A stretch of 43,267 bases of DNA, from contig NZ_AULZ01000029.1 in the NCBI RefSeq assembly GCF_000422545.1, positions 1 through 43,267 on the forward strand, read 5' to 3'. The DNA comes from Desulfocurvibacter africanus subsp. africanus DSM 2603 (lineage in GTDB: Bacteria; Desulfobacterota; Desulfovibrionia; Desulfovibrionales; Desulfovibrionaceae). Positions within the stretch are counted from its first letter, which is position 1. Every line of letters begins with the position of its first letter. This document shows, in pieces, positions 822-43,267 of this stretch. The translations under genes and the position numbers were made by a program. The notes under the pieces are model-generated. The model was not told where the DNA came from and did not search any database. It was given only the letters and a program-made list of their open reading frames with translations.

Positions 822-3077
822 ATGAGCGAACAGCAGCAGATGGCTCTTCCTGGCGACGAAGCCGGTTCCGAAACGCTCCAGGTAGCGCTCAGGGCCGAGG
901 TTCGCCAGGTGGTCTACTCGAACGCCGAGAACGGCTACTGCGTGTTGCGCGCCGCCTCGGCCAGCGAGCCCGGCTTGGTCACGGCCGTGGGCATCCTGGG
1001 CCAGGTCACGCCTGGCGAGATGCTGGAGCTGTCCGGCCGCTGGATCGTGCACTCCAAGTTTGGCCGACAGTTCGAGGTGACCTCCTTCCGACAGACCTAT
1101 CCGGCCACGGAACACGGCATCGTGCGCTATCTTTCGTCCGGGCTCATCAAGGGCGTGGGGCCGAAGACGGCCGAGGCTCTGGTGGCGACCTTCGGCACGG
1201 CCGTGCTGGACATCATTGAGAGCGAGCCCGAGCGGCTGCTCGAAGTGGACGGCATCGGCAAGAAGACCCTGGAGCGCATCCGCGAGTCCTGGGGCACCCA
1301 GCGGGACATTCGCACGCTCATGCTCTTTCTGCAGTCCCACGACGTACCCACCACCTACGCGGCCAGGATCTACAAGGCCTTCGGGGCCGAGGCCGTGGAG
1401 CGGCTCAAGGAGAACCCCTACGAGCTGGCCTATCTGGTGCGCGGCATCGGCTTCCGCACGGCCGACGTCATGGCCATGAAGCTGGGCCTGCCGCCCGACA
1501 GCCAAGTGCGCTTGGAGGCCGCGATCGTCTACGCCCTGTTCAGCATGTCCGAGAAGGGCCACTTGTTTTTCCCGGAGGACAAGCTCCTAGACCAGGTGGA
1601 CCGCATGCTGGAGGGCATGGAGTCGGCCAAGCTGCATCAGGCTCTGGCCGGCCTGCTGGAGCGCAAGCGCGTGGTGGTCGAGGAGATCGGCACGGCCGAC
1701 GTGCAACGCGGCGTGTATTTGCAGCACTTCTATCGCTGGGAGCAGGAGACGGCCTCGCGGCTGTACAATCTTGTGAGCCATCCCGCACCCACGGCAACCT
1801 TGGAGAAGGTCGAGCGCGGCCTGCCGGAACTGGAAGCCGAGACCGGCATCAAGCTCTCCCATGAGCAGCGCGAGGCCGTGCTGGGCGCGGTAGCCAACAA
1901 GGCCTTCATTATCACCGGCGGGCCGGGCACGGGCAAGACGACCATCACGCGCATGGTCGTACGCTCGCTCAAGAAAGCCGGGCTCAAGATCAAGCTCGCC
2001 GCGCCCACGGGCCGCGCGGCCAAGCGGCTGTCCGAGGCTTCCGGCGAGTCCGCCTCGACTCTGCACCGGCTGCTGCAGTACTCGCCGGAACAGGGCTTCT
2101 CGATCAACGAGGACTCCAAGCTCAAGGCCGAGGCGGTCATCATCGACGAGGCCAGCATGCTCGACGCGCAGCTTTTCGTCAGTGTGCTGCGTGCGCTTCC
2201 GCTGACCTGCCGGCTCATTCTGGTTGGCGACGTGAACCAGCTTCCGAGCGTGGGGCCGGGTAACATTCTGTCCGACCTGCTCGCCAGCCAGGTCGTGCCG
2301 AGCATGTGCCTTACGCGCATCTACCGCCAAGCTCAGGAGAGCTGGATCGTGACCAACGCCCACCGGGTCAACGACGGTCAGTTCCCCGGCGAAGACAGCA
2401 AGGCCGTGCCGCCCAAGAAGGACTTTTTCTGGGTGCGCCAGGACGAACCGGCCCGCGTGCAGGCGCTCATCCTGCAGCTCGTGTGCGAGCGCATCCCCGA
2501 GATTTACGGCCTGGATCCTAAGCGGGACATCCAGGTGCTCACGCCCATGCACAAGGGCGAGGTGGGCACGCAGGCGCTCAACACCATGCTCCAGGAACGG
2601 CTCAATCCGCTCAGGTCCGGCATGCAGGAGATCGTGCGCGGCCGCACGACCTTCCGTCCCGGCGACCGGGTGCTGCAACTGCGCAACAATTACGAGAAGG
2701 AAATCTATAACGGCGACCTGGGCTGGGTCACCAGCGTGGACCCGGAGGCGGGCGAGGCGCTGGTGGATTTCGAGGGCAGGGGAGTGGCCTTCGAGGCCGC
2801 GGATCTGGACGAGCTGACCCTGGCCTACGCCGTGAGCGTGCACAAGTCCCAGGGCAGCGAGTACCCTGCCGTTGTGGTGCCCATGGTTACGCAACATTAT
2901 ATCATGCTGCAGCGCAACCTGCTCTACACCGCGCTGACCCGCGCCCGGGAGCTGGCCGTGCTCATCGGCAGCGACAAGGCCGTGGGCATCGCCCTGCGCG
3001 CCAACGACGCGGAGAAGCGCTACACGCACCTGAAGGTGAGACTTCAGGAACTGTTCAACCAGACGCAACTTTTTTAG
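822..3077 (+). CDS. recD2: RecD2-type ATP-dependent DNA helicase
   Basis: This is an SF1 5'-3' DNA helicase of the RecD2 family, the stand-alone RecD homologue of bacteria without RecBC association. The N-terminal third carries helix-hairpin-helix-like segments (GVGPKTAEALVATFG, VDGIGKKTLERI, RGIGFRTADVMA). Walker A GGPGTGKTT lies near residues 366-374 and Walker B VIIDEASMLD near 440. The C-terminal helicase motif AVSVHKSQGSEYP is also present. About 750 residues is normal for RecD2. A GTG at 816 is an alternative start; neither has a convincing ribosome-binding site. The TAG stop (3075-3077) is the first three bases of repeat copy 2, so the element defines the C-terminus (ending QTQLF). thiD lies just past that repeat. 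Confidence 0.93.
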   Translation: MSEQQQMALPGDEAGSETLQVALRAEVRQVVYSNAENGYCVLRAASASEPGLVTAVGILGQVTPGEMLELSGRWIVHSKFGRQFEVTSFRQTYPATEHGIVRYLSSGLIKGVGPKTAEALVATFGTAVLDIIESEPERLLEVDGIGKKTLERIRESWGTQRDIRTLMLFLQSHDVPTTYAARIYKAFGAEAVERLKENPYELAYLVRGIGFRTADVMAMKLGLPPDSQVRLEAAIVYALFSMSEKGHLFFPEDKLLDQVDRMLEGMESAKLHQALAGLLERKRVVVEEIGTADVQRGVYLQHFYRWEQETASRLYNLVSHPAPTATLEKVERGLPELEAETGIKLSHEQREAVLGAVANKAFIITGGPGTGKTTITRMVVRSLKKAGLKIKLAAPTGRAAKRLSEASGESASTLHRLLQYSPEQGFSINEDSKLKAEAVIIDEASMLDAQLFVSVLRALPLTCRLILVGDVNQLPSVGPGNILSDLLASQVVPSMCLTRIYRQAQESWIVTNAHRVNDGQFPGEDSKAVPPKKDFFWVRQDEPARVQALILQLVCERIPEIYGLDPKRDIQVLTPMHKGEVGTQALNTMLQERLNPLRSGMQEIVRGRTTFRPGDRVLQLRNNYEKEIYNGDLGWVTSVDPEAGEALVDFEGRGVAFEAADLDELTLAYAVSVHKSQGSEYPAVVVPMVTQHYIMLQRNLLYTALTRARELAVLIGSDKAVGIALRANDAEKRYTHLKVRLQELFNQTQLF

Positions 3078-3201
3078 AGCATTTGCTTTTGAAAATGCTC
3101 TGCAAGCCATGCGTCGGCATGGCTTCCCGCCGCGCAGGCGCAGGCGCAATTCACTTGCGCCGTCAACGCCGGAGCGGGCGTCTTAAAAACAATCTGCTCT
3201 A
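3075..3201 (+). repeat. MITE-like interspersed repeat, copy 2 (supplies the recD2 stop codon)
   Basis: Same element and orientation as copy 1, flanked by TA. One T is missing from the first hairpin (AGAGCATTT), and the last G of the second palindrome is C. It fills essentially the whole recD2-thiD interval: its first TAG is the recD2 stop codon, and its right TA overlaps the AGGGG that serves as the thiD ribosome-binding site. Confidence 0.9.
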
Positions 3202-3210
3202 GGGGTGACA

Positions 3211-10742: not shown

Positions 10743-13205
10743 ATGTCCAAGTTTTTCTCCTTCGGAAACGATCCCTTCCTCGAGCGGATCGAGCTGCCGA
10801 TCATGTCGCTGCGCGAAGTGGTCATGTTTCCCAAGTCCATCGTGCCCTTGTTCGTGGGGCGCGAGGCATCAATCAAGGCCATCGAGAACGCGCTGACCAA
10901 ATACGACAAGAAGATATTTCTGGTCACCCAGAACGTGCCCGAGAAGGAGCGCCCCGAGCCTGGGGATCTTTTCTCCGTCGGCACTGTGAGCAAGATTCTC
11001 CAACTCCTGCGGCTGCCCGATGGCACCATCAAGGTGCTCTTCGAGGGTCTTCAGCGCGCCACCTGGGACAAGGAAACGTACCGTTTCGACCCCGAGCACG
11101 AGTATCCCATTGTCGAGACCGAGCCCATCAGCGATGACGACTCGGATACTCTGGAGGCTCAGGCTCTGGTTCGCGCCACCCACGAGGCCCTGGACAAGTA
11201 CGCCAAGGTCAACAAGAAGCTGGCTCAAGAGACCGTGGCGGCCATGAATTCCCTGAATGCGCCGGGGCGGCTCGCCGATGCCATCATGCCGCACCTCAAG
11301 ACCGAGTATGCCACCAAGCAGAAGGTCCTGGAGGAGTTCGACCCGATCAAGCGCCTGGAGGAGACCTTCGGGCTGCTCAATGCCGAAATTGAGATTTCGT
11401 CCCTGGAGAAGAAGATCAAGGGCCGGGTCAAGTCGCAGATGGAGCAGAATCAGAAGGACTACTACCTGAACGAGCAGCTCAAGGCCATCACCAAGGAGAT
11501 GGGGCGCGAGGAGGATCCGGTCACCGAGATCCTGGAGCTCGAGAAGCGCATGCGCGAGAAGAACATGCCCGAGGAGGCCCGTGAGAAGGGCCTGCGCGAG
11601 TGCAAGAAGCTCAAGCAGATTCCGCCCAGCTCGGCCGAGTACACCGTGGTGCGCAACTACGTGGACTGGATTCTCGACTTGCCCTGGAACGAGCTCAAGG
11701 AAACGCCTCTGGACATGGCCAAGGCGCGGCAGATTCTGAACGAGGATCATTTCGGCCTGGACAAGCCCAAGCAGCGCATCCTGGAGTTTCTGGCCGTGCA
11801 GAGCCTGGTGGGCACTCTCAAGGGTCCCATTCTCTGCTTCGTGGGACCTCCGGGCGTGGGCAAGACCTCGTTGGCCAAGTCCATTGCCAGGTCCACGGAC
11901 CGACCCTTCGTGCGCCTGTCCCTGGGCGGCGTGCGCGACGAGGCGGAGATCCGCGGTCATCGCCGGACCTACGTTGGTGCGTTGCCCGGCAAGATTATTC
12001 AGTCCCTGAAGCGGGTGAAGTACAACAACCCGGTGTTCATCCTGGACGAGGTGGACAAGATGAGCATGGACTTCCGCGGCGACCCTTCGGCCGCGCTGCT
12101 GGAGGTCCTGGATCCGGAGCAAAACAACGCCTTTGGTGACCACTATCTCGATCTGGATTACGATCTGTCCAAGATCTTCTTCATCACCACGGCCAACAGC
12201 CTGCACTCCATCCCGGCGCCTCTGCGCGATCGCATGGAGATCATCGAGCTGCCCGGCTATCTGGAAACCGAGAAGCGCCAGATCGCGCGCAGCTTCCTGC
12301 TGCCCAAGCAGATCAAGCAGCACGGGCTTACAGAAGAAAACCTTTCTCTGTCCGACGACGCAATGCTGGAAGTCATCCGTCGCTATACCAAAGAGGCGGG
12401 TGTGCGCAGCCTGGAGCGCGAACTGGCCAGCGTCTGCCGCAAGACGGCTATGAAGCTCGTTGAGGAAGGTAACAAGGAGATGGCCGTGCAGATTACGGCC
12501 CAGAATCTCCAATCCATCCTGGGCGTGCCCAAGTTCCGCTACGGCGAAAAGGAAGAAACGCCCCAGGTCGGCATGACCATGGGCTTGGCTTACACCGAAC
12601 TGGGCGGCGAATTGCTTACGGTGGAGACCGCGCTCATGCCCGGCTCGGGCAAGGTGGAAATCACCGGCAAGCTGGGTGATGTCATGCAGGAGTCGGCTCG
12701 CGCGGCCATATCCTACGTGCGCTCGCGCTCGGACATGTTTGGCCTCAAGCCCGACTTCTACAAGAGCGTGGACATCCATATCCATGTGCCGGAAGGCGCG
12801 GTGCCCAAGGACGGCCCCAGCGCCGGCGTGACCCTTGCCACCTCCGTGGTCTCGGCGCTGGTCAACCTGCCCGTGCGCAACGACCTGGCTATGACCGGCG
12901 AGATCACCTTGCGCGGGCGCGTGCTGCCTATCGGCGGTCTGCGCGAGAAGCTCCTGGCGGCGCATCGCGGCCTCATCACCACGGTGCTCATTCCTAAGGA
13001 CAACGCCAAGGACCTCAAGGATGTGCCCGAGGAGATCCTCAAGGACCTTGAGATCATCCAGGTGGAGAACATGGATGACGTCCTGGACAAGGCTCTCGCC
13101 TGCGGCGAGAGTTCCCCGCGCGCCATGTTCTGCGCCACCGAGGATGTGCAACCCATCGCCAGCACGCTCCTGAAAGATGGAGTGCAGGCGCGGCGAGCGC
13201 ATTAG
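10743..13205 (+). CDS. lon: ATP-dependent Lon protease
   Basis: Lon is a hexameric cytoplasmic AAA+ serine protease that degrades misfolded and regulatory proteins. An N-terminal substrate-binding LAN domain ([19 protein letters not shown]) is followed by a coiled coil, then Walker A GPPGVGKT at about residues 368-375 and Walker [11 protein letters not shown]. The C-terminal protease domain has catalytic Ser693 in [10 protein letters not shown] and Lys736 in [10 protein letters not shown]. The 43-residue gap matches E. coli S679/K722. The length is 820 residues. AGGAGG precedes the ATG. The TAG stop (13203-13205) is the first three bases of repeat copy 3, so the last residues (RRAH) run up to the inserted element. 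Confidence 0.97.
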
Positions 13206-13331
13206 AGCATTTTGCTTTTGAAAATGCTCTGCAAGTCATGCATCGGCATGGCTTGCCGCTAGCTTCGGCGTAGGCGCAATTCACTTGCGCCGACAACGCC
13301 GGAGCGGGCGTCTTAAAAGCAATCTGCTCTA
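13203..13331 (+). repeat. MITE-like interspersed repeat, copy 3 (supplies the lon stop codon)
   Basis: Plus orientation, flanked by TA. The left TAG is the lon stop codon. This copy belongs to a variant with CCGCTAGCTTCGGCGTAGG in the middle instead of CCGCCGCGCAGGCGTAGG; copy 4 shares the variant. In the second palindrome a C-to-T change (GCAAGTCATGC) keeps pairing as a wobble. Confidence 0.9.
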
Positions 13332-13342
13332 GGAAAAGAAAA

Positions 13343-15380: not shown

Positions 15381-15514
15381 GACCGCTCCCGGTGCGAATT
15401 GCTTCATTCGCAGCAGCAATACCGATGCCAGTGGCGAGTTGGAAAGTAAACCAGATGAAGGGCGTTTTGTCTGGATTCAGCGTATGAAGATCGGCTCGGG
15501 GCAGGTCATGCTGC

Positions 15515-15637
15515 TAGAGCAGATTGCTTTTAAGACGCCCGCTCCGGCGTTTACGGCGCAAGTGAATTGCGCCTACGCCGAAGCTAGCGGCAAGCCATGC
15601 CGCCGCATGGCTTGCAGAGCATTTTCAAAATGCTCTA
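15515..15637 (-). repeat. MITE-like interspersed repeat, copy 4 (inverted)
   Basis: Opposite orientation to the other five copies, flanked by TA on both sides. It belongs to the copy 3 variant (shares the GCTAGCTTCGGCGTAGG core). It is about 5 bp shorter because the loop of the terminal hairpin is reduced to one base, while the 10-bp stem AGAGCATTTT/AAAATGCTCT is intact. It lies between the glycosyltransferase and argF, upstream of both. Confidence 0.9.
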
Positions 15638-38162: not shown

Positions 38163-38192
38163 CGGCGCGCCCAAGGGCGCGCCGTTCATTCT
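38163..38192 (+). terminator. Hairpin terminator after the hemerythrin gene
   Basis: CGGCGCGCC and GGCGCGCCG (38163-38184) form a GC-only stem around a short loop, followed by TTCATTCT. Repeat copy 5 begins at the next base. Confidence 0.75.
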
Positions 38193-38320
38193 TAGGGCAT
38201 TTTGCTTTTGAAAATGCTCTGCAAGCCATGCGTCGGCATGGCTTGTCGCCGCGTAGGCGTAGGCGCAATTCACTTGCGCCGTCAACGCCGGAGCAGGCGT
38301 CTTAAAAGCAATCTGCTCTA
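38193..38320 (+). repeat. MITE-like interspersed repeat, copy 5
   Basis: Plus orientation, flanked by TA. The left end reads TAGGGCA instead of TAGAGCA, so the first stem has one mismatch. The middle has the CCGCGTAGGCGTAGG form shared with copy 6. It sits immediately after the hemerythrin terminator. Confidence 0.9.
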
Positions 38321-38564
38321 GGACCTCGTGACCCGGCCAAAGATTGCGCCTGCCAAGTTCGACAGACAACCACTATCTATAGATACATTCAATCTAGGCA
38401 GTTGCTTGCTTGAGCCAAGTAACGTCAGCTCTGACCATGCAGCTAATGCTGGCTTGCTTCCTTAATCTTTGCCAGGTTGCATCCGCGACGCTATGTAAGC
38501 TTTGCCATTACTTTTATGTCGAATCTCGGCAGAGCAGACCAATAAACTACAAAGATTTGCGCAT
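38321..38564. other. 244-bp gene-free segment between two direct copies of the repeat
   Basis: No gene or structured RNA recognised. The segment is bracketed by repeat copies 5 and 6 in the same orientation, about 372 bp apart start to start. Confidence 0.5.
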
Positions 38565-38692
38565 TAGAGCATTTTGCTTTTGAAAATGCTCTGCAAGCCA
38601 TGCGTCGGCATGGCGTGCCGCCGCGTAGGCGTAGGCGCAATTCACTTGCGCCGTCAACGCCGGAGCGGGCGTCTTAAAAGCAATCTGCTCTA
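38565..38692 (+). repeat. MITE-like interspersed repeat, copy 6
   Basis: Plus orientation, 128 bp, flanked by TA. Nearly identical to copy 5 (both have the CCGCGTAGGCGTAGG core). The second palindrome has one change (GCATGGCGTGC). Confidence 0.9.
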
Positions 38693-39555: not shown

Positions 39556-40113
39556 ATGCCCCTGAACGATTATTCCGCACTGCTGGAACGCCTGCAGCGC
39601 GCCCTGGCGCTGGCTTTCGATCAATCCGGCGAGTTCCTGAACAGGCCGGGCTCGTCTTCGGCCTTCAAGATCGATCCTGATTTCTACCTGGCCATCTTGC
39701 CCCAATTCGCTGAAGACCTCTCATTCCTGACAGGTATCTTGACCGAAACCGTGATTGAAACGCTCGTTCTCACGGGAAATCTGGCGACCTATGGGCCGGA
39801 ACGAATATGCTCGTTGCGTCTGGATGTGCATTTATCGCGTTCGGGAAGTCCCCGTCCTTTGCAGGTCGGATTCCTGCAGGCCGGTTTCGTGGACGGAGCG
39901 CTCAAGCTCTACGGAGGCCGGCGTTCTGGTTTGCCGTTGTCGGATGTGCGTTTGAACGCCGCCCAGCGACCTTTGGTCGAAAGGTTCCTGGCAGGCAGAC
40001 CTGTGCCCGCCTCCATCTCCTATGCCGGCGAAATGCCGCCTGCGCGTCCAGGTTTATCGACCAGCGCCAAAGCGCAAGCAGCCGCCAAGCCTGGGGCTCG
40101 GATTCGGCGCTAA
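39556..40113 (+). CDS. Hypothetical protein, 185 residues
   Basis: Not recognised. The protein is soluble with no signal peptide. The N-terminal half is helical (LNDYSALLERLQRALALAFD, FYLAILPQFAEDLSFLTGIL), the middle is beta-rich (ICSLRLDVHLSRSGSPRPLQ), and the C-terminal tail is low-complexity (TSAKAQAAAKPGARIRR). ACAGGAG lies 7 nt upstream of the ATG, and the GC-rich codon use matches the genome, so it is probably real. It is separate from both neighbours. Confidence 0.62.
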   Translation: MPLNDYSALLERLQRALALAFDQSGEFLNRPGSSSAFKIDPDFYLAILPQFAEDLSFLTGILTETVIETLVLTGNLATYGPERICSLRLDVHLSRSGSPRPLQVGFLQAGFVDGALKLYGGRRSGLPLSDVRLNAAQRPLVERFLAGRPVPASISYAGEMPPARPGLSTSAKAQAAAKPGARIRR

Positions 40114-40306: not shown

Positions 40307-40720
40307 TCAGATGCTTTTGAAAACCTTGGCTAGGGAGTCCCCGGCCACGTGGAGCTTCCACTCGTTCAGATAGCCGAAGGGTGTCTCGCCCACGCTGTAG
40401 CCAGTGTTCTCCAGCCGTTGGCGTACCTCTGCGACTAGCTCGCGCACGAATTCCGGGTCAGCTTTGCTTTCCGAGAGGTGCCCGAAAGAGTGCAGTACAA
40501 CCTGCTTGGTGTTGAATTTTCCTCCCAGCCATTTGATGTTCTTCAGCATCTTGGACAGGACGCTACTCCGGCGGTCATGGTCCTCGGCTTCGCCATGGTA
40601 GAAAACGACTACCGCATCGCGGGCCATTGCACCGGTCGGCTCGGCTTCCGGGGCTTCGGGCAGAGTCTTTTGGAAGGGCTTGTGCCAGAATTCGGGAGCA
40701 TAAAACATGAGCAATTTCAT
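40307..40720 (-). CDS. Free-standing threonyl-tRNA synthetase editing-domain protein
   Basis: This 137-residue protein matches the archaeal ThrRS N-terminal editing domain (tRNA-Thr_ED, a D-aminoacyl-tRNA deacylase-like fold) rather than a bacterial synthetase. It has an N-terminal MKLLMFYAPEFWHKP strand, then DAVVVFYHGEAED, QVVLHSFGHLSESKADPEFV (compare the LYPxAHLSS pattern of the family) and GYSVGETPFGYLNEWKLHV (compare APFGWYKxFxL). In archaea this domain removes serine mischarged on tRNA-Thr; here it stands alone, so its substrate is open. GAGG precedes the ATG. Its start overlaps the stop of the upstream gene by 4 nt (ATGA), so the two are translationally coupled. Confidence 0.75.
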   Translation of the reverse strand: MKLLMFYAPEFWHKPFQKTLPEAPEAEPTGAMARDAVVVFYHGEAEDHDRRSSVLSKMLKNIKWLGGKFNTKQVVLHSFGHLSESKADPEFVRELVAEVRQRLENTGYSVGETPFGYLNEWKLHVAGDSLAKVFKSI

Positions 40721-41289
40721 GACGTGCCTCGGTTGCACGGTCCCAGGCAGCCCGCGCGCAGGCTGCAACCTGCGCATCCATCTTGGTGAGAGGAGAGGGA
40801 TCCGTGGCTATCGAAGGTGAGCACGGCATAGCGGCGCGCGAGGTGTCCGTCATCGGTGGCCAGACCGTTGAGTAATAAGGCGCGAGCCAGTGTCGGATCG
40901 ATCTCGGGCAGGGGCGCGCAGCTGCGTTCGGCGAGATCGGGCCGCAGGTCGGCCAGTGCAGCCATGACCAGTCGCGCTGCCAGACGGTGCAGCAGCAGAC
41001 CCAGGGCCGGCTCTTCGCTCAGAGTACGCTCTACTTCGGCTTCTATTTCAGCCGGAAGCCATAGAGCCAGAATCGGGCCGCCAGCGGATTCCAGCCGGGC
41101 CGTTCGCAGGCATGCCGCCCAAAGCGACATGCAGCGGGCCAGCGATGGGGCATAGCGCGTGCGCCCAGGAGCAGGCAGGTCCGCCAGCACCGGCCCGAGG
41201 ATATTCTGTGGTGCAAGCGTTTTGGCCCCTATCTCATAGGGTGCAGAGGGCAAAGGGGCTTCCGGGTGTGGATGGGAATCGTAAGGCAT
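40717..41289 (-). CDS. Unknown protein with C-terminal cysteine cluster, coupled to the editing-domain gene
   Basis: Not recognised. The 190-residue protein is helical (AEIEAEVERTLSEEPALGLLL, LARALLLNGLA) and ends in a cysteine cluster CAGCSLRAGCLGPC (C-x2-C-x5-C-x3-C), which could bind zinc or an iron-sulfur cluster. It overlaps the following editing-domain gene by 4 nt (ATGA), so they are an operon. The start at 41289 has AAGGA about 10 nt upstream; the frame is open to 41364 without a site. Its role is likely linked to tRNA or amino-acid quality control only by this association. Confidence 0.65.
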   Translation of the reverse strand: MPYDSHPHPEAPLPSAPYEIGAKTLAPQNILGPVLADLPAPGRTRYAPSLARCMSLWAACLRTARLESAGGPILALWLPAEIEAEVERTLSEEPALGLLLHRLAARLVMAALADLRPDLAERSCAPLPEIDPTLARALLLNGLATDDGHLARRYAVLTFDSHGSLSSHQDGCAGCSLRAGCLGPCNRGTS

Positions 41290-41657
41290 GGTCGCTGTTC
41301 CTTGGTGCCTGTCCCGCTGGCGTGACCGTAAATGACGCTTTACGCGTTCGCTGGAGGTCACCATAGAATGGCCTTCCGGTCAATGGATGGGACCTCGGAG
41401 GAGTCCCGGCAAGTGCTAGGATAAAGCATCCTGCAGCCTTTCTCGCCTTACGCAATCCCGGCGAGTGTCACAAATGCAAGTGAGTAATCGCCGGATATCC
41501 CTTGATGGTCCGGTACACTGCTTGCGTCCGTTATCTCCTCGCCCTATGATGCAGTTTCAGCACGATAAAGAATGAGGCTATCCCCGGAGTCTAGCATGCA
41601 GGGCCTGTCATACTGTGAGTTTTGTCCCGTTCGTGCTTGGTGGATGCGGAGTGCGGC
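41290..41657. other. Divergent intergenic region before the HD-GYP gene
   Basis: About 370 bp without a gene. It must hold the promoters of the cysteine-cluster gene (minus) and the HD-GYP gene (plus). No clear promoter or operator was recognised. Confidence 0.35.
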
Positions 41658-42731
41658 ATGCAGGATGCGCTTCATTCCATGACAACTCCCACCGATTCCG
41701 CCCAGGCAGGCAATGGCGGTAAGAATTCTCTAAGCGAAGATCGGCGACGCATTCTTGAATTATGGAGTCGCATCCGGCCGATGTCGGAGGTGGTGCCGTT
41801 CCAGGAGGAAGTCGAGGCGGCCGACGCTGTCTTAACCGGAGCGGTGGAGTACACGCGGCACTTCATGGACGAGGTGCGCCGTGGCAAGATCGTGGACTGT
41901 CGGGAGGCCTTGCCTCTCGTGGACCAGCTCATCGCCAGCGCAACCCGCAACCAGTCCGCCGTGATCAGCCTGGCCAAATTGAAGGTCCATGACGAATACA
42001 CCTTCCACCACAGCATCAATGTGGCCATGTTCTCGATCATTTTTGGCCGGAGCTTGGGCTTGCCCCTGGAAGCGCAGAGGGTGCTCGGCCTCGCCGGCAT
42101 CTACCACGACGTGGGCAAGGCGCGCATTCCCGAGGATATCCTCAAGAAGCCCGAGCAACTGAATGACGAGGAATACTCTCTAATCAAGCGTCACGCCGTG
42201 GAGGGCTACCGGGTCATGCGCGACTCGGCGGTGTTGCACCGTGACGTGCTCCTGGCCATCATGCAGCACCACGAACGCCATGATGGCCAGGGCTATCCCC
42301 GCGGCTTGGCGGGTCAGGCCATAAGCCCGCTGGCCCGCATCATCAGCTTGGTGGACGTGTACGATGCCCTGACCAGCAACCGTTGCTACCGCAAGGCGAG
42401 CACGCCGACCACGGCCCTTGGCCACATCTACCACCAGCAGGGCGCACATTTCTTCCCCACCTATGTAGAGCGCTTCATCAAGTGCATCGGCGTCTTTCCT
42501 CCCGGCAGCCTGGTGCGGCTGACGGATGGGAGCATCGCCGTGGTGCGTAGCGTCAACCCTGATTACAGCCTCCTGCCCACGGTAAGCGTATATCTCGACC
42601 AGCGGCTTCGCCGCTGTCAGCCCAGGATCATCGATCTGGCCCAGGCCCAGGCCGACGGGCTGAATCTGGGTATTCTGGGCTGTGTGGACCCGCGCCCCCT
42701 GCGCATTGATCCCGCCTTGCTCCTGCGTTGA
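41658..42731 (+). CDS. HD-GYP domain protein (probable cyclic-di-GMP phosphodiesterase)
   Basis: This 357-residue protein has an N-terminal helical region with no recognised sensor domain, then a complete HD-GYP domain. The metal-binding HD is in IYHDVGK (His150, Asp151), the second histidine pair and GYP motif are HHERHDGQGYP (from His204), and SLVDVYDALTSNRCYR follows. HD-GYP enzymes hydrolyse c-di-GMP to GMP or pGpG, linking to motility and biofilm control. A C-terminal region of about 80 residues (from FPPGSLVRLTDGSIAVV) is a small beta domain often found in this subgroup. ATG 41658 is preferred because GGAG lies 8 nt before it; a TTG at 41622 is possible. Confidence 0.92.
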   Translation: MQDALHSMTTPTDSAQAGNGGKNSLSEDRRRILELWSRIRPMSEVVPFQEEVEAADAVLTGAVEYTRHFMDEVRRGKIVDCREALPLVDQLIASATRNQSAVISLAKLKVHDEYTFHHSINVAMFSIIFGRSLGLPLEAQRVLGLAGIYHDVGKARIPEDILKKPEQLNDEEYSLIKRHAVEGYRVMRDSAVLHRDVLLAIMQHHERHDGQGYPRGLAGQAISPLARIISLVDVYDALTSNRCYRKASTPTTALGHIYHQQGAHFFPTYVERFIKCIGVFPPGSLVRLTDGSIAVVRSVNPDYSLLPTVSVYLDQRLRRCQPRIIDLAQAQADGLNLGILGCVDPRPLRIDPALLLR

Positions 42732-42936: not shown

Positions 42937-43267
42937 GGGCCTGTTAACGCTATCTGAGCGCCTCTACAATTAGTGCCAAGGTGAGAAAGCCAAGGTACAT
43001 GACATCGAGCTTGTCGTAGCGGGTAAAAATGCGCCTGTAACCTTTGAGTCGTCTGAATAGACGCTCTATCTCATTGCGCTTTTTGTACAGCTCCTTGTCA
43101 TATTCCCAGGGTTCCAAGCGATTGGGGTTTGGAGGAACCACGGGAACAAAACCCAAATCTCGGCTCAGAGTTCTTGTTTCATTGCCCTCATAGGCTCCAT
43201 CCATGAGCAAGGGGCATGAGTCAGTCGGCGGGCCGCCCAGCATTGTCAGCAGACGCCGGCCTTGCGG
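42937..43267 (-). mobile_element. IS5-family insertion sequence, right end, cut by the window edge
   Basis: The element begins GGGCCTGTTAACGCTA, matching 14 of 16 bases with the reverse complement of the IS end at 32-47. It is preceded by CTAG (42934-42937), and the transposase ends 13 bp inside. The rest of the element lies beyond the window. Confidence 0.8.
42950..43267 (-). CDS. IS5-family transposase, C-terminal part (incomplete)
   Basis: A DDE transposase fragment of about 105 residues, open at the window edge. The segment LLMDGAYEGNETR carries the second catalytic Asp. The Y-(2)-R-(3)-E-(6)-K signature is visible in YKKRNEIERLFRRLKGYRRI, with the catalytic Glu. It ends RYDKLDVMYLGFLTLALIVE, typical of the IS5/IS427 group. 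Many members of this group are split into two frames; whether this one is cannot be seen here. Confidence 0.88.
   Translation of the reverse strand, partial: PQGRRLLTMLGGPPTDSCPLLMDGAYEGNETRTLSRDLGFVPVVPPNPNRLEPWEYDKELYKKRNEIERLFRRLKGYRRIFTRYDKLDVMYLGFLTLALIVEALR

Follow-up and report, generated by a model that had tools for sequence, protein, structure and literature searches.

A free-standing tRNA-Thr editing-domain protein with a rebuilt pocket in a bacterium, and the four-cysteine protein gene that it overlaps

A bacterial editing-domain protein without a synthetase

Desulfocurvibacter africanus subsp. africanus DSM 2603 encodes a free-standing protein, here called ED (P0001), that is a real and well-conserved bacterial variant of the known tRNA-Thr editing-domain family. 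Our preferred reading, with a probability of roughly 0.6, is that ED is a trans-acting aminoacyl-tRNA deacylase with a changed or widened substrate, acting apart from P0002, the four-cysteine protein whose gene it overlaps. We observed directly the fold, the subfamily and its patchy distribution, the overlap of the two genes and, in the host itself, a ThrRS editing domain and a DTD. ED has the archaeal ThrRS editing-domain (DTD-like) fold, belongs to a bacterial subfamily spread patchily across the host phylum, Nitrospirota and a few further lineages, and lies downstream of a family-typical copy of P0002. In the mechanism that we propose, ED would have been acquired horizontally and would hydrolyse mischarged tRNA in trans, with a substrate that may differ from, or be wider than, Ser-tRNAThr. 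The gene overlap would give co-expression and not a two-protein enzyme, and P0002 would act alone; it may carry a metal cluster and have a MetH-activation-domain-like fold.

The window, meaning the whole stretch of 43,267 nucleotides that was analysed (contig NZ_AULZ01000029.1), comes from a host genome of 4.40 Mb in 40 contigs. Its features are listed in Table 1.

Table 1. Positions of the features in the window
Feature	Position	Strand	Basis or remark
ED (P0001), free-standing tRNA-Thr_ED protein, 137 aa	40307..40720	-	Pfam, phmmer, AlphaFold, Foldseek
ED His81 (P. abyssi H83), His in 67/67 distinct bacterial rows	40478..40480	-	Alignment
ED Leu118-Asn119, replacing P. abyssi Tyr120-Lys121	40364..40369	-	Alignment; residue roles from PMC4491819, in part
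ED Lys132, replacing P. abyssi Glu134	40325..40327	-	Alignment
Overlap of P0002 stop and ED start, ATGA	40717..40720	-	Sequence; same overlap in L048
GAGG, Shine-Dalgarno-like, 6 bases before ED start, within P0002	40727..40730	-	Sequence
P0002, four-cysteine protein, 190 aa	40717..41289	-	Family homologues in 133/149; no Pfam/NCBIfam match
P0002 C124 (GCAPLP motif), invariant 24/24	40918..40920	-	Family alignment
P0002 C172, C175, C181 (C-x2-C-x5-C), invariant 24/24	40747..40776	-	Family alignment
HD-domain (HD_5) gene, divergent	41622..42731	+	Pfam
Unnamed gene, convergent	39556..40113	+	Without Pfam match; in genomes that lack PF08915, homologues lie close to P0002-family genes
Partial transposase-like ORF, runs off window end	42950-43267	-	Recognised by eye
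Dispersed repeat of about 130 bases, six window copies	38192-38320, 38564-38692, 48-176, 3071-3203, 13202-13334, 15514-15630

A preliminary description of the window had proposed an isolated tRNA-Thr editing-domain protein in a bacterium, and this holds: in a Pfam scan, PF08915 matched ED over residues 1-137 of 137 (E 9.4e-42; 142.8 bits, the cut-off being 30.2), with no synthetase attached. The best solved sequence relatives found by phmmer were archaeal ThrRS editing domains. Structure prediction, which the same description had named as a check, recovered the editing-domain fold. The AlphaFold model, built from a 46-sequence alignment, had a mean pLDDT of 88.8 and a pTM of 0.85, and Foldseek ranks 1-23 were archaeal ThrRS editing domains (TM 0.80-0.87 by query length; 20-24% identity); DTD chains started at rank 24, with a TM of about 0.6. 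Foreign origin is not clearly signalled by GC content, which is 0.563 in ED, 0.651 in P0002 and 0.597 in the window.

A rebuilt pocket in the bacterial subfamily

We compared the pocket in an alignment of 75 bacterial ED rows, 67 of them distinct, with the P. abyssi chain as reference. Forty-seven rows came from the window, L003 and 45 of the 50 named-record loci (the partial L078, L079, L080, L082 and L083 were excluded), and 28 came from the 29 new phylum loci, the archaeal-type L094 being set aside; 14 further places without a locus were not aligned. The place of Tyr120 is taken by Leu in 61 distinct rows, Phe in 3, Gln in 2 and Val in 1 (Tyr 0/67), that of Lys121 by Asn in 63, Leu in 2, His in 1 and Cys in 1 (Lys 0/67), and that of Glu134 by Lys in 64 and Arg in 3 (Glu 0/67). 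At the lysine site stands an L-N-E-W set that is equally conserved in the bacterial subfamily. The PFGY loop, which in archaeal domains lies close to the terminal adenosine (PMC4491819, in part), is kept in at least 60 of the 67 rows at each position.

Because every member of the subfamily has lost the polar residues that in archaea touch the serine or hold the water in place, the substrate of ED would be changed or wider, and it is probably not plain Ser-tRNAThr. The three replacements differ in weight. Tyr120 and Glu134 contact the serine, yet Ala replacement of either costs no activity, and two of the three replacements therefore need not alter the substrate (PMC4491819, in part). According to the same part of that source, only Lys121 matters strongly: the K121M change, like the matching change in two other archaeal domains, severely impairs activity because the catalytic water moves, while Asn at this place is not among the tests found there. 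A caveat on the pocket argument is that the archaeal-type L094 is also without Glu134.

The alternative that fares best is that ED is an ordinary editor of Ser-tRNAThr in trans, as the archaeal trans-editing ThrRS-ED proteins are, backing up the host ThrRS. It departs from our preferred reading only in the substrate, and is favoured by the full-length PF08915 match and by the fact that the nearest solved structures are Ser-tRNAThr editing domains. However, the lysine whose replacement by Met severely impairs three archaeal domains (PMC4491819, in part) is found in none of the 67 bacterial rows, and the host ThrRS already has a tRNA_SAD domain, which together make a plain editor unlikely. Replacement of the polar pocket residues would also fit a protein that keeps the fold and has given up deacylation for another role, for example tRNA or nucleotide binding, and no consistent translation-related neighbour of ED was noticed. 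Against such a loss, the equivalent of His83 is kept in every row and each position of the PFGY loop in most, so we regard it as improbable. The alternatives partly overlap, and their probabilities need not sum to one. Returning to a deacylase with a changed or wider substrate, so uniformly rebuilt a pocket in a host already equipped with the usual editors suggests a kind of mischarged tRNA perhaps not yet listed.

The bacterial subfamily is patchily spread over the host phylum, Nitrospirota and one Poribacteria record, and no description of it was found in the open-access literature searched, including the available parts of PMC8762117, PMC5424206, PMC4491819 and PMC3532385. In a tree of 76 ED rows, from which we claim no donor lineage, the window row was not placed with support; horizontal acquisition of ED is thus inferred from patchiness alone. 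One further PF08915 match, at G415:C43:91486-91875, has an internal TAA stop and is either a decayed gene or an assembly error.

Host editors and known relatives

The host has a ThrRS of 666 aa with its own tRNA_SAD editing domain, whose H-x3-H and C-x3-H stretches we take to be the editing-domain motif, and a separate DTD. ED shares its full-length fold, His83 and the PFG loop with the N-terminal editing domains of archaeal ThrRS (P. abyssi, M. jannaschii, A. pernix), from which it differs in having no attached synthetase and in the replacement of Y120, K121 and E134 across the aligned bacterial rows. The trans-editing archaeal ThrRS-ED and the SepCysS-linked or SepRS-fused tRNA-Thr-ED resemble ED in standing apart from a ThrRS catalytic domain, but the A. 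pernix domain retains Tyr115, Lys116 and Glu129 (PMC4491819, in part), and the SepRS-fused form is said to retain the serine motif (PMC8762117, in part). In the parts of the literature available, accounts of relatives of the archaeal ThrRS editing domain that do not belong to a ThrRS deal with archaea or with fusions to bacterial SepRS. With DTD (PF02580), which has Met at the place of K121 (PMC4491819, in part), ED has the general fold in common; PF02580 gave no match to ED at E up to 1. A link of the host ED to SepRS was considered and rejected, as no SepRS reaches the family cut-off: the sepS profile gave 26.9 bits in the host against a cut-off of 380.65, and in controls 13 of 14 genomes also gave a signal, two of them above the cut-off.

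Another genome of the same phylum, G179, carries archaeal-type domains that keep Tyr120 and Lys121 (L094 and L135). At L134:2087-4045 (+), a single protein of 652 aa combines an editing domain of archaeal type (PF08915, E 4.2e-41) with a whole cysteinyl-tRNA synthetase (TIGR00435, 558 bits vs 340); no fusion of this kind was found in the available parts of PMC8762117 and PMC5424206. At L135:841-2022 and 2228-2950 (+), a SepCysS gene precedes a gene for a SepRS-like protein that carries an editing domain at its beginning, and ED-SepRS fusions have been described (PMC8762117, in part).

Junction of the ED and P0002 genes

As the preliminary description had it, ED starts within the ATGA that closes P0002. 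The GAGG that precedes the ED start by 6 bases lies inside P0002, which makes coupled translation of the two genes plausible. The same gene order, with a divergent HD gene, a P0002-like gene and ED, and the same 4-base overlap, were found at L048 of Desulfovibrio sp. UBA6079 (Desulfovibrionaceae; genome G031, whose loci L002 and L005 are letter-identical to parts of L048). Since both genes have homologues and the overlap recurs in L048, the arrangement is more than chance. Each of the two genera that carry the ATGA-coupled pair is represented by one genome. HD-domain homologues lie divergently beside the pair in L118 and L048 (shared sequence cluster; the L118 gene was Pfam-scanned). Cluster members of the convergent gene were found in 10 of 28 P0002 loci of other genomes, all without PF08915. 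We do not claim a simple insertion of ED at an orthologous 'empty site': in the tree the closest partner of the window P0002 is the L048 copy and not the P0002 genes of those loci, and L118 is without the convergent gene.

ED and P0002 across genomes

Joint function had been read from the overlap, and the two proteins had been proposed as a possible trans-acting proofreading pair; their distribution across genomes does not support such a pair. Because handles and totals match, the PF08915 and P0002 counts are taken as coming from the same genome samples (149 of the host family; 395 of the phylum). P0002 homologues occur in 133 of the 149 family genomes and PF08915 in three (G000, G031 and G070); these three have both, leaving 130 of the 133 P0002-bearing genomes without PF08915. 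Among the 395 phylum genomes, PF08915 was found in 42 and the P0002 profile in 17, all 17 of the host family, and the host alone had both. One of the 42, G179, carries archaeal-type copies and is therefore not counted for the bacterial subfamily. None of the 378 genomes from other families matched the P0002 profile, and 41 of these carry PF08915; as at most eight candidates per genome were scored after a first look, the negative result for other families carries less certainty than the matches inside the host family. The plasmid records matched neither ED nor P0002.

Gene neighbourhoods give the same picture. A P0002-like ORF was found at one of 50 ED loci from named records, L048, and the ATGA-coupled pair recurs in one other genome. 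In G070, ED and the P0002 homologue sit on separate contigs. We listed the ORFs upstream of ED for 48 of the 50 loci (L082 and L083 left out; some loci end near the gene), and in nine of the 48 an upstream ORF of at least 60 aa runs 4 bases into the start of ED. The overlapping ORF is thioesterase-like in six loci (L034, L035, L036, L050, L070 and L071), P0002 in L048, another gene in L047 and a probable false frame in L077. The L036 ORF matched 4HBT at E 1.1e-17 in a Pfam scan, and the other thioesterase-like ORFs were assigned by sequence cluster. In L060 and L072 a thioesterase-like ORF lies 18 bases upstream of ED, so that a thioesterase-like neighbour is present in 8 of 48 loci overall. 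Since ED overlaps thioesterase-like or other genes elsewhere, overlap is a habit of the ED gene in several lineages and not of the pair, and the ATGA overlap by itself says little about joint function. As a general rule, ED and P0002 as a conserved unit can be dismissed on these co-occurrence counts and the neighbours of the outside loci; with the P0002 family usually occurring without ED, a dedicated proofreading pair is unlikely.

The P0002 family

P0002 was unrecognised in the preliminary description and remains so: neither Pfam nor NCBIfam gave a match at E up to 1, the family members that were scanned are likewise unnamed, and the PDB sequences gave a single weak match (E 0.11). Twelve columns are invariant in 24 aligned members, and four of these are cysteines. 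The C-x2-C-x5-C-x3-C ending reported earlier is present with this spacing at residues 172-185, but its last cysteine is not conserved in the family; the invariant set is the C-x2-C-x5-C part together with C124. A distant Cys plus C-x2-C-x5-C occurs in some [4Fe-4S] proteins.

Both pair-bearing genomes, the host and G031, have a second copy of P0002 elsewhere. In the host, the second copy scored 193.7 bits with the family profile and the window copy 146.7 bits. A tree of 44 P0002 rows joins the two ED-linked copies as sisters (100/92) and places the second copies of both genomes elsewhere, within the main clade. Because the branch of the window row is long (1.43) and the L048 row is odd in composition, the sister relation is only a hint. 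The next relatives of the ED-linked copies are L030 (G122) and L022 (G110).

These sister copies, and the pair shared by two genera, leave room for an ED-P0002 link as a hint. A two-part system limited to the few pair-bearing genomes, in which P0002 would bind tRNA or carry a metal centre while ED hydrolyses, could draw on that sister grouping and on the identical ATGA overlap and divergent HD gene in the two genera, but G070 of the same family keeps the two genes on different contigs, nearly all P0002-bearing family genomes are without PF08915, EDs elsewhere have other neighbours, G122 and G110 are both without PF08915, and catalysis in the editing-domain fold is argued to need no side chain (PMC4491819, in part), all of which make such a system very improbable.

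The P0002 family, an unnamed four-cysteine protein found in most genomes of the host family, has a weak fold match to the MetH activation domain. The P0002 model (pLDDT 68.5) was built from two sequences. Its first 14 VIA-align rows were MetH activation domains (stand-alone form, e.g. TM0269) at Z 5.3-7.3, with the next row at Z 4.8, all below Z 8, where chance is warned of. Foldseek rank 1 was also a MetH activation domain, 1j6r, at E 0.058, with no match at 0.001 or better. Like P0002, the stand-alone PF02965 proteins of the phylum have a C-x2-C-x4/5-C end, in 15 of 15 extracted from 17 loci examined. By sequence, PF02965 matched none of 24 P0002 members at E up to 1 and was absent from all 39 host-family genomes searched. 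Comparison of the P0002 family with PF02965 proteins by hhalign gave a probability of 1.4% (P 0.036) over a part that excludes the cysteines, against 0.1 (P 0.51) for the sole control, the ED alignment. D. vulgaris MetH is without the standard activation domain, and its reactivation involves a RamA-like protein (PMC5764234, in part), which lessens the need for P0002 as a MetH activator. Taken together, the fold resemblance between the P0002 model and the MetH activation domain stands, sequence homology is not established, and the relation is best treated as an idea.

Joining these strands, the bacterial ED subfamily might be a separate trans-acting tRNA deacylase with its own substrate other than Ser-tRNAThr, marked by PFGY-L-N-E-W-K versus archaeal PFG(Y/W)-Y-K, and in the host lineage might be co-translated with a specialised copy of the four-cysteine protein P0002, which resembles the activation domain of a corrinoid enzyme. 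We offer this fuller version tentatively, as one that may well fail in some of its parts.

A dispersed repeat in the window

Besides its six window copies (Table 1), three further copies of the dispersed repeat turned up when a few other host stretches were compared, all in two of these. The nine copies align with 85% mean column identity, and the repeat has inverted ends (TTAGAGCA...TGCTCTA). No Rfam match was obtained for it. One copy has a far better fold than its shuffled versions, with z -7.6 on one strand and -5.7 on the other, and the repeat is MITE- or REP-like.
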